This document shows, in pieces, positions 28,328 to 31,593 of a stretch of DNA of 33,632 nucleotides. The notes beneath the pieces were generated by a model. That model made no database searches. It was not told where the DNA came from and saw nothing but the letters and a program-made list of their open reading frames with translations. Position 1 is the first letter of the stretch, and every line of letters begins with the position of its first letter. The translations under genes and the position numbers were made by a program. The stretch lies in assembly GCA_021775895.1 (NCBI GenBank), contig JAJFGX010000113.1, positions 1-33,632 of the forward strand, given 5' to 3'. The DNA is from Alphaproteobacteria bacterium. GTDB lineage: Bacteria > Pseudomonadota > Alphaproteobacteria > Micavibrionales > CSBR16-224.

Positions 28328-29335
28328 ATGGTTAAGGAAACGGATGATAAGAGTGAGATTTCAAAAAAACCACAATTACGAAATTTTAAAGAGAGAACAG
28401 AATATTTACGTACAGGCGGCGGTACTGGTGGTTTAGGTCATCGTGGAACTTTGGAGTGGCACTTAAGTCAAGATATGTGTGCTATTTCAACAGAAAGTGA
28501 TAATTATTCTGTATTAAAGCAACTAAAATCAATGTTAGAAAAAAGTCGTACTGGTAAAGCTTTCTTAGATGATGCTGATGTGACTGGGATTAATATTGAA
28601 TTTGATTCGCAAGTTGCTGTTTCCCAATTTTACCCAGAAATGAATATGATTACGCTTAATCCCAATCAACCTAGTATGACGATGATGATTCATTTGATTG
28701 GTGAGTTACGTCGTGGTTGGCAAAATGAACGTGGACTTTTGTTTAATCCGTTAGAATATCAGCCTGATGAGGCTGTTTTGTTGAATCGAGCACAATATGC
28801 TGACACTGCAATGATGTGTGTTCGCATTGGTTGGGAGTTAAAGCTACTTGGAGATAATGTGCTTTGGGATTATATGCTCTCCTCATCTAATGCAGATATT
28901 GCTAGATGTTTTGAAATGCATGCCCGTAATGACTTTCGTTCTTTAAACAGTGGAGATGCAGCACGTAAAGCATATGATATGTGGTTTGCCAGTGAGCGTA
29001 TGCGTTTCTATGATAAAGATATAATTCATCAAATGCTTTTAGATGAAAACGTATCTGAAAGTAATCACGGTACAAAAGAGCTTAATTCGCAAGAATTATA
29101 CGGCTTCGCTAGTATGCCATATGGTCGTAATTATATGTCATTATCGGGATATCGTGATCCTACAGATAAAGATTATAGCATTGTTGAGGATCGCTCTAAT
29201 GCTAATTTCCTTTGGTTTATAAAATTTGAGCGTAGTTTTCAGGCTCGTGAACGTGAAATGATGCAAAATACGGCGGCATCTCCGTTAAATATTATAGATA
29301 TAAATGGCTGGAAACAGCAACGCTTAGCAGAATAG
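28328..29335 (+). CDS. DUF6782-like protein, metallopeptidase-like with zinc motif lost (copy 1)
   Basis: 335 residues, cytoplasmic by sequence (no signal peptide). The middle contains MMIHLIGELRRGWQNERG followed by FNPLEYQPDEAVLLNRAQYADTAMMCVRIGWELKLLG. This resembles the putative-metallopeptidase family DUF6782, in which I recall a helix of the form HELRHAWQ; here the His ligands are replaced (GELRRGWQ), so activity is doubtful. The following gene is a clear paralogue sharing G-x-LR-x2-W, FNP, ADT and WEL. GAGGG precedes the ATG. The two are 49 bp apart on the same strand, probably one transcript with the lipoprotein downstream. Family name is tentative; the paralogy is seen directly. Confidence 0.72.
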   Translation: MVKETDDKSEISKKPQLRNFKERTEYLRTGGGTGGLGHRGTLEWHLSQDMCAISTESDNYSVLKQLKSMLEKSRTGKAFLDDADVTGINIEFDSQVAVSQFYPEMNMITLNPNQPSMTMMIHLIGELRRGWQNERGLLFNPLEYQPDEAVLLNRAQYADTAMMCVRIGWELKLLGDNVLWDYMLSSSNADIARCFEMHARNDFRSLNSGDAARKAYDMWFASERMRFYDKDIIHQMLLDENVSESNHGTKELNSQELYGFASMPYGRNYMSLSGYRDPTDKDYSIVEDRSNANFLWFIKFERSFQAREREMMQNTAASPLNIIDINGWKQQRLAE

Positions 29336-29384
29336 TTGATTTAGACAGATAGATAATAGATAGATAAATAAAGGTAAAATAAAG

Positions 29385-30290
29385 ATGGGAATATATGATT
29401 ATAGTGATCAATTGTTAGATTTGCAGCATCACCATGCAGGCACAATGAGCTTGAGAGACGTGCTAACTGGAGATGGCAGGGACAATATGCCAGCCCCTGA
29501 GTTATATGTTGGGCAGGCTTTAAATATAATGAAAACAAGCTATACGGCTAATTTGCTATTGCAGCACTGTATGAAGTCTGATGTTGGTTTGCGTCTAGAT
29601 TCTATGTTGCCAGCAGATGGCTCTTTCTTTGATGAGCAGGAAAATGCCTTGGATATTTCAGAGCAAAATCAATTGTTTAATGTAGACATGCATAGTGCTA
29701 GGTTAGGTCAAATGATCATTGGGCTTGCTGTTGGACTGCGTAAGGCTTGGCATTATCATAAGGGTAATGGTTTTAACCCTGAATTATGTGTGCAAGATCT
29801 TTTGCACCTTTGCCGTTCAGCTGATGCTGACACGGTTGTTTTTGTAACACTTATATGTTGGGAGTTACGAGAAAAAGGTAATAGCTCGCCTTGGAAACAA
29901 TGGTCTACAGGTGAGAATGAAGATGTTGCTAAGGCATTCGAATTAACTCAAGCAAATTATGGCAGTACAAAAAATGTACAAGGGCTAAACAAGGCTTTAC
30001 AGGCATCTTATAGACAATGGTTTCAGCATAAAGATAGAGGCACAGCTTCTGAACATACAGCTTTAGAAAAACTTGATAGAGTACTGATAAAATGTCGTTC
30101 TGAAGATGTTGATACTAGCTGGATAGGTAAAAATCCACTAACGCCTAGTACATGGTCTAGGCTTGGAGAAATACCTGGGTGTCAGAATTATTTAAACCAT
30201 GAAAAGCTACTTAAGCACGGCTATAGCGAACAACCGTATGATGCTTTTAATCGTGTACATTTAAAACATGTGTTGGAAGATATTTCTTAA
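29385..30290 (+). CDS. DUF6782-like protein, paralogue of the preceding gene (copy 2)
   Basis: 301 residues. Core segments align with the preceding gene: GLAVGLRKAWHYHKG with FNP in place of GELRRGWQNERG with FNP, then DADTVVFVTLICWELREKG against YADTAMMCVRIGWELKLLG, and GENEDVAKAFEL against SSNADIARCFEM. No HExxH is present. The N-terminal (1-70) and C-terminal parts differ between the two copies. The ATG has AAAGG at a normal distance; the 49-bp gap before it carries GATA-type short repeats (29347-29368). Both may be binding proteins derived from a peptidase fold. Function unknown; family name tentative. Confidence 0.72.
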   Translation: MGIYDYSDQLLDLQHHHAGTMSLRDVLTGDGRDNMPAPELYVGQALNIMKTSYTANLLLQHCMKSDVGLRLDSMLPADGSFFDEQENALDISEQNQLFNVDMHSARLGQMIIGLAVGLRKAWHYHKGNGFNPELCVQDLLHLCRSADADTVVFVTLICWELREKGNSSPWKQWSTGENEDVAKAFELTQANYGSTKNVQGLNKALQASYRQWFQHKDRGTASEHTALEKLDRVLIKCRSEDVDTSWIGKNPLTPSTWSRLGEIPGCQNYLNHEKLLKHGYSEQPYDAFNRVHLKHVLEDIS

Positions 30291-30309: not shown

Positions 30310-30744
30310 ATGAGGCAATTTATAAAATATACGATATTTGGTTTTTGTATTTTAATGGTATCTGCTTGTGCACCCGCACGTGAAGATGCTGATGCAAAGT
30401 TGCTAAAGGCTTGCAAGGCTTCTGTAGAGGCTGTTTCTAGTTCTAATGAAAAAATACATAAAATTACAGCTCAAACCTTTGTTGATAAGAAATCTCATGA
30501 TGGTTTGGATTTGAGGGTGGTGACCATTAAAGCCAGAGTAACCGTTGGCGATAGTGCTTTTCGTCAGAAAAAATATGTTTGCTATTTCCAAGAGAGAATT
30601 GGCGTTTTCGGCATTGGTTATTCAGTTGAATTCTATCGTCTGGATAAAAGTGGTAGAATGTATGGCAATGTTGATGGCACAATTATGGGTGATTTCAACG
30701 ACAACATGAAAATCAACCAAGCCGTTGAGAAAATCTTCTATTAA
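30310..30744 (+). CDS. Small lipoprotein, unknown function
   Basis: 144 residues. A signal peptide ends in the lipobox MVSAC with the lipidated Cys at 20, so the mature protein is anchored in the envelope. The mature part starts helical (DADAKLLKACKASVEAVSSSNEKIH) and becomes beta-rich (VVTIKARVTVGDSAF, KYVCYFQERIGVFGIGYSVEFYRL). Two more cysteines (C34 and C98) could pair. GAGGGG precedes the ATG. It begins 19 bp after the second metallopeptidase-like paralogue, so the three likely share a transcript. No family recognised. Confidence 0.8.
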   Translation: MRQFIKYTIFGFCILMVSACAPAREDADAKLLKACKASVEAVSSSNEKIHKITAQTFVDKKSHDGLDLRVVTIKARVTVGDSAFRQKKYVCYFQERIGVFGIGYSVEFYRLDKSGRMYGNVDGTIMGDFNDNMKINQAVEKIFY

Positions 30745-30801
30745 AATTACTCCTCATTATATTATCTTGCAATAAGAGCATTATTAAATTTACATCAATC
30801 A

Positions 30802-30830
30802 TTGCTTAACATATTCGTAATTCATATGTT
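30802..30830 (+). promoter_or_regulatory. Sigma70-like promoter of P5
   Basis: TTGCTT at 30802-30807, 17-bp spacer, TATGTT at 30825-30830. The -10 equals those of P1 and P4; the -35 is weaker. Confidence 0.55.
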
Positions 30831-30879
30831 GTAGTTGGTAGATTGAATAAATAGTAAATAATATAAAAGGAGAATTAAA

Positions 30880-31593
30880 ATGGCTCGTCAGTATGGTGAT
30901 TTTCGAGATATAGTAGATGAAGATGAAGGATTAAGTATGAAAGAATCTATAATTGCCTATTCTCTGTTTTTAGCTTCTTTTACAATTGGTTTTGGTGGTG
31001 CTTATGGGATTATAGATGAGCCTATAGAAACAACATCAGGAAGCCCAAAGCAAGAAAAAGTTATGATAGCTTTTCAAGATGCTTCAGCGTTGTTGATTTC
31101 ACAATATAATGAAATAAGAGGTATCGACGACCAAAGAAATGTGACAAGCACGATGAATGCACTTAATAGTATTGGCAATACAGAAGACGTGGCTAATAAT
31201 GCACTAAATATTGAGCGGAGTGACCTAACTCATGCATTTAATAATGATGTTACTAAGTTTTTCGATGCACTTGCATTTGACGCAAATATTCCAGAGCAAG
31301 CTAAAGCGGACTTAATAGAAACGTTAGGTAATGGTGGTATTAATATTCTTGAGTATACAGGACATGATGAAATAAACCCTGCATACTTAACTGAATGTAG
31401 AATTAGTAATGGTAATAGTGCCAATAGTATTTATGAATGTACAGATTATTCTAATGATAGTGATTGGGCAATAATACTTTTATTAGGGGGGGCAATGAGT
31501 GCTGGATTAATGTCTAAAGTAGTGAAGCCACTATGGAATAGCGAACGTGTAAAAAAAATGGTGAAACCTAAACCTAAAGCTAAAAATTATTAA
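30880..31593 (+). CDS. P5: two-helix membrane protein of the dispersed family, with Cys pair
   Basis: 237 residues, function unknown. An acidic N-terminal piece (7-18) is followed by a hydrophobic segment (22-44), a helical domain, INPAYLTECR (165-174), the Cys pair C173/C187 (C-x13-C) ending ECT, a second hydrophobic segment (196-212), and a lysine-rich tail ending KPKPKAKNY. It is the closest relative of P4; the shared pattern over the Cys domain is L-x-N-x-GIN, INPAYLxECR, IYxCT. AAAGGAG precedes the ATG at standard distance. It follows a lipoprotein gene by 135 bp with its own promoter and overlaps the uracil-DNA glycosylase gene by 4 bp at the 3' end (convergent). Confidence 0.87.
   Translation: MARQYGDFRDIVDEDEGLSMKESIIAYSLFLASFTIGFGGAYGIIDEPIETTSGSPKQEKVMIAFQDASALLISQYNEIRGIDDQRNVTSTMNALNSIGNTEDVANNALNIERSDLTHAFNNDVTKFFDALAFDANIPEQAKADLIETLGNGGINILEYTGHDEINPAYLTECRISNGNSANSIYECTDYSNDSDWAIILLLGGAMSAGLMSKVVKPLWNSERVKKMVKPKPKAKNY

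Follow-up and report, generated by a model that had tools for sequence, protein, structure and literature searches.

Order-wide loss of the predicted zinc site in two neighbouring DUF6782 relatives of Micavibrionales, and their linkage to the P200 family

Nearly all genomes of the order Micavibrionales carry a pair of neighbouring genes whose products descend from the putative metallopeptidase family DUF6782 (PF20573) and have lost its predicted zinc site. The window, by which we mean the whole stretch of DNA analysed, 33,632 nucleotides of an alphaproteobacterial contig (C17) carried by a 2.0-Mb assembly, contains one such pair, the members of which we designate C1 and C2. We estimate the probability at about 0.5 that C1 and C2 are ancient, order-wide pseudo-zincins derived from DUF6782 metallopeptidases, acting as a non-catalytic binding subunit together with the product of a frequently neighbouring gene, here called P200. 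The features of the pair in the window are as follows.

28328..29335, + strand: C1, the upstream dead DUF6782 protein, 335 aa (ORF; PF20573 match at E 6.5e-30; orthologues order-wide)
28700..28714, + strand: GELRR of C1, residues 125-129, at the HExxH position (profile alignment; codons derived from residue numbers)
28796..28804, + strand: YAD of C1, residues 157-159, at the position of the third-ligand EAD (profile alignment)
29183..29230, + strand: C-terminal motif of C1, VEDRSNANFLWFIKFE (alignment of the order's C1)
29385..30290, + strand: C2, the downstream dead DUF6782 protein, 301 aa (ORF; PF20573 match at E 2.9e-16)
29730..29744, + strand: VGLRK of C2, residues 116-120, at the HExxH position (profile alignment)
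29823..29831, + strand: DAD of C2, residues 147-149, at the position of the third-ligand EAD (profile alignment)

C1 and C2 are separated by 49 bp. Both belong to DUF6782 by profile score, at 104.6 and 59.9 bits respectively against a curated cut-off of 27 bits, with most of the domain matched, and PF20573 was likewise matched (E<=0.001) in all 24 C1 and all 23 C2 proteins scanned. An earlier note, made from the letters of the window alone, had read the two as tandem metallopeptidase relatives without HExxH and had proposed an HMM comparison with DUF6782; both the relation to this putative metallopeptidase family and the absence of HExxH are borne out, with GELRR and VGLRK in register above the cut-off. 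FNP, ADT and WEL are indeed shared by both proteins, as that note had it, but G-x-LR-x2-W does not hold up as a single motif: the alignment places the G of C1 at the first-His position and that of C2 at the Glu position, and the common part is LR-x2-W. The claim that the zinc ligands are gone also stands, the third-ligand Glu being replaced by Y in C1 and by D in C2, except that C1 retains the Glu of HExxH. The closest named relative found for C1 is in a Micavibrio sp. metagenome-assembled genome (L028; 67% identity). The motif VEDRSNANFLWFIKFE, which lies beyond the borders of the Pfam domain, is almost invariant in C1 across the order.

We compared family members read from the window's genome, from its order and from six genomes that represent other orders in the class, recognising C1 orthologues by the C-terminal motif [AS]NFLWF and C2 by its position directly downstream. 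HExxH was missing from 60/60 C1 and 53/53 C2 across the order, two sets pooled (38/38 and 32/32 in the first; 22/22 and 21/21 in the second, of 22 genomes), whereas it was kept in 86/86 other readable members, 55 from the order and 31 from other orders. The zinc-site loss in the pair is thus ancient and beyond chance, as judged from these sequences. All 31 members read in the six genomes of other orders were intact. Of the 88 members remaining in the first set 86 have HExxH; a C1-like protein that ends at a contig edge (L102) and a 103-aa fragment were not counted as intact. Column by column, intact members have the first His, the Glu and the second His in 86/86 each, the third-ligand Glu in 84/86 (both misses come from the L030 pair, in which EAD is nonetheless visible) and a conserved Tyr in 72/77. 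The corresponding counts are 1/38 (first His), 1/38 (second His), 5/38 (third Glu) and 4/38 (Tyr) for C1, and 2/32, 0/32, 9/31 and 0/31 for C2, so that in the alignments both lineages have lost the predicted zinc ligands and the conserved Tyr. Single ligands persist in some C1 (e.g. HELRR in G124), and all three occur together in no C1 and no C2 of the first set. An HETRH in one C2 (G013) was considered as an active site and ruled out, as it lies off the active-site columns and is a coincidence.

What stands at the old site differs between the two proteins. Most C1 orthologues have R/K-E-L-R-R at the HExxH position, former ligand positions being mostly R or K, and near the site an Arg and an Asp are each present in 38/38; where the catalytic Glu used to be, E stands in 27/38 C1 and in 0/32 C2. 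The alternative zinc site that the earlier note had asked to be looked for did not emerge: no His or Cys is invariant in C1 and C2 lacks a set of three ligands, so that neither shows a further conserved zinc site; one built of Asp and Glu only may be possible. In a tree of the family C1 forms a clade (support 0.98) and C2 groups weakly (support 0.28), and because C1 and C2 do not make up one clean clade, either one loss or two losses could have produced the pair. Several other members of the family have unusual forms. One copy (G020:C2:970089-970748) is split into two ORFs by an in-frame TAG, a recently broken gene; DUF6782 domains lie within open frames of 2208 and 2810 aa (G133:C160:8833-9453 and G135:C3:503445-505046), the usual length being 300-450 aa; and three genomes of other orders (G143, G191 and G214) hold at least 21 DUF6782 matches each, many of them in tandem, those read being intact.

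By profile match, C1 is a near-universal core gene of Micavibrionales. Of 142 genomes in the order, 134 gave a match to the C1 profile at E<=2.2e-90; two others matched weakly and the remaining six had no match. In a sample of the class, 286 of 289 genomes had no match at the same threshold, the three exceptions all being Micavibrionales; six other C1-profile matches in this sample were to members that proved intact wherever they were fetched. Together with C1, hemE and a close P200 are missing from five genomes (G047, G063, G089, G127 and G026), which led us to reject independent loss of the gene and suggests that the locus was lost as a whole or fell into a gap of the assembly; four of the five are listed as 97-100% complete. 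G006 has a close P200 and a partial hemE together with no strong C1 match, and G010 and G016, also without a strong C1, are 62-64% complete. Both genes are present in a genome that we take to be Micavibrio aeruginosavorus ARL-13 (G072), no more than 7 kb from where the deposited sequence ends. In seven pairs dN was 0.07-0.38 and dS 0.58-2.0, the latter near saturation in four, and C1 and C2 thus combine loss of the catalytic residues with continued purifying selection, as expected of pseudoenzymes. C2 evolves faster than C1 and is missing next to it in 6/38 loci, suggesting that C1 can at times do without its neighbour.

We modelled C1 with AlphaFold2 from an alignment of four sequences. Mean pLDDT was 56.9, with residues ~57-223 mostly in the 70s-80s apart from a weak loop at 137-152. 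This core has the predicted order H-H-E-E-E-H-H, and the two helices that bear the ligands in zincins here carry GELRR and YAD. A Foldseek search with the model gave no match at E<=0.001, every E being above 0.3. VIA comparison returned mainly zincins, many of them at Z 5-7.6 and among them Wss1, lethal factor, IrrE/PprI, selecase and ArdC, the best row having Z 7.6 over 157 residues at 4.3 A, where a Z below 8 may reflect a common arrangement only. Intact DUF6782 members match IrrE weakly by sequence in the region of HExxH (E 2.2e-4). Taken with modest confidence, the model suggests that C1 keeps a zincin-like core; the predicted model of C2 gave no useful structural match.

The usual gene order around the pair, found across families, is hemE–P200–C1–C2–ppsR, with hemE/hemH on the opposite strand to the pair and ppsR being the kinase/pyrophosphorylase gene recognised by Pfam; the genes that follow, by eye, we take to be maf, aroE, coaE and dnaQ. 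P200 is a family of ~205 aa for which Pfam and NCBIfam searches gave no matching model, and its gene lies upstream on the same strand in 28/38 C1 loci. The adjacency is loose, with gaps of 74-2557 bp and, in 10 of the 38 loci, no P200 within the stretch fetched. In some members of the window's family the pair is relocated, and this holds for the window's genome, in which the pair sits behind a peptidase-C26-like gene and a gene of unknown kind, and P200 stands beside hemE on another contig (C42).

P200 also keeps company with DUF6782 genes outside this arrangement. In other orders it adjoins an intact member (G143, G191) or a dead one (G242). Within Micavibrionales a second cassette, in which P200 is followed by a dead DUF6782-like protein of 168-203 aa, was found in three genomes (G000, G002 and G030). 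Among 20 further loci, 16 had P200 after ORF filtering; seven of these had the short dead protein as well, eight were without it and one was fused, a 393-aa ORF (L180:2411-3592, G015) joining P200 to a short dead DUF6782-like domain. Across 114 genomes outside the order P200 occurred in 10, PF20573 in 12 and both in six (Fisher 6e-5, uncorrected for kinship). DUF6782 genes, living and dead, are in these assemblies recurrently linked with P200, in one case by fusion. We also tried a mirror-tree test of a C1-P200 complex, in which the partial correlation given hemE was 0.72 and hemH controls were near 0. We set this test aside because it is unspecific: unlinked P200 paralogues correlate with C1 at 0.86-0.87, as high as or higher than linked P200. 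At one locus (L148, G241) P200 genes are flanked by tandem ankyrin-repeat proteins of ~490 aa.

Downstream of the pair, window positions 30310-31593 hold a small lipoprotein-like ORF and a 237-aa ORF, both without a Pfam match. The earlier note had pointed to a lipoprotein and P5 following on the same strand; they do, at 30310 and 30880, but neither adjoins the pair in any of the other loci fetched. Among the loci read, the lipoprotein and the 237-aa ORF seem confined to this genome, the lipoprotein having one weak match at 24% identity (L103). Rfam found three tRNAs in the window and nothing else, promoter-like sites were as frequent as expected from shuffled sequence, and terminator-like sites fell within one standard deviation of expectation.

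Given that the zinc site has been lost while the genes are retained under constraint, a non-catalytic role is reasonable, and the linkage of P200 together with the fusion makes a complex of P200 with pseudo-zincins the most economical idea. C1 and C2 would no longer hydrolyse peptides, the peptidase activity of the intact members being itself putative. C1, joined by C2 where present, would serve, together with P200, as a cytoplasmic subunit for binding and not for catalysis; the old substrate cleft, with Arg/Lys and Glu replacing the metal site, would hold a partner, and the C-terminal segment specific to C1 may help to hold it. At a guess, the Arg/Lys residues, the invariant Arg and the usual Glu of C1 could form salt bridges in the metal's stead. 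The function would be of a housekeeping kind and not one of immunity against intact relatives in the same cell. More tentatively, Micavibrionales might possess a universal, undescribed pseudo-zincin complex of P200 and C1, usually with C2, in which a cationic Arg/Lys-Glu-Leu-Arg-Arg takes the place of zinc, and which was domesticated from an older, still catalytic P200-metallopeptidase system that grew to 21 or more copies per genome in other orders of Alphaproteobacteria; we regard this fuller account as possible but less than probable.

The earlier note had suggested a binding or regulatory role, of which the non-catalytic part is reasonable. The pair could in principle be a pseudoenzyme regulator (an inhibitor, a decoy or an immunity-like partner) of intact DUF6782 proteins in the same cell. 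The active-type copy that the note wished to see sought elsewhere in the genome does exist, as eight members with intact HExxH in the window's genome, and inactive paralogues often partner active ones, TldD/TldE being an example. We screened 20 genomes drawn from 67 with exactly two Pfam matches, however, and at least 15 have the pair and lack any intact member that could be recognised (counting G025 and G034, each with one extra unread short match, and G018, with a match containing four stops), while C1 is still strongly conserved; a weak HExxH-bearing candidate was seen in the other five (G021, G028, G054, G056 and G068). Control of intact relatives is therefore unlikely as the conserved role. 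That the pair is instead a decaying remnant or an annotation artefact without function would account for the missing catalytic residues and for the faster evolution of C2, and is very improbable, as nearly all genomes of the order have the pair, dN is well below dS and the C-terminal motif of C1 is almost invariant.

A role for new residues at the old site, such as the conserved Arg, Glu or Asp, in a different catalysis draws on the strong conservation around the C1 site and on the top structural row, itself weak, which is an HExxH-type oxygenase domain. We consider it doubtful, since the old catalytic Glu position is variable, no His or Cys is invariant in C1, and the oxygenase takes its name from the very HExxH that C1 and C2 lack. 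It is similarly improbable that C1 and C2 are nucleic-acid-linked regulators of the IrrE/PprI and ImmA-like zincin type whose own protease activity has been given up. IrrE/PprI with ssDNA is among the zincin rows, as are transcriptional regulators of M. tuberculosis, and the position close to the sequence end in the presumed M. aeruginosavorus genome could be read in the same direction; against this, the two proteins of the window have an acidic pI (5.3 and 5.8; C1 median 5.2), a Pfam scan found no DNA-binding domain or HTH family in either, and the fold rows are weak. Returning to the binding subunit, nearly every genome searched keeps the dead pair, so its conserved job is probably binding, not cutting.

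The pair, both members dead throughout an order while dozens of relatives are intact, lets binding be set cleanly against catalysis in a natural comparison within one family. As a gene set it also defines a lineage with epibiotic bacterial predators among its members, it exposes P200 as a family without a Pfam or NCBIfam model, and its role is testable because it is found in the genome taken as M. aeruginosavorus ARL-13. In database searches the PADLOC defence library gave no match, PHROG matched neither C1 nor C2 (and one intact copy weakly), C1 relatives were looked for in viral contigs and none were found, and the PDB searched by sequence yielded nothing for C1 and two meaningless matches for P200. 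A full-text literature search for DUF6782 found no paper among those it covered.

Compared with DUF6782 at large, C1 and C2 share the frame LR-x2-W, AD, W-x-x-L and NYL; unlike it, they have lost the zinc ligands and the Tyr, and C1 has its own C-terminal motif outside the domain. As they lack HExxH, and none of those in the first set keeps all three ligands, they are members by descent and, judged by this site, not working metallopeptidases. IrrE/PprI and selecase, which are M78-type zincins, have a weak structural likeness to the C1 core (Z ~5), and C1 and C2 differ from them in having no HExxH, no detected HTH domain and an acidic composition. TldE is the inactive member of TldD/TldE, a family unrelated to DUF6782. 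This heterodimeric protease is a precedent for an inactive paralogue serving as a protease partner; C1 and C2, by contrast, are two inactive paralogues side by side, and often there is no active partner. The FtsHi proteins of Arabidopsis are pseudo-proteases with an important function, and unlike C1 and C2 they are AAA+ membrane proteins of another family. Since inactive protease paralogues are described in other families, the pseudoprotease kind is known, and the case of C1 and C2 in DUF6782 is new.
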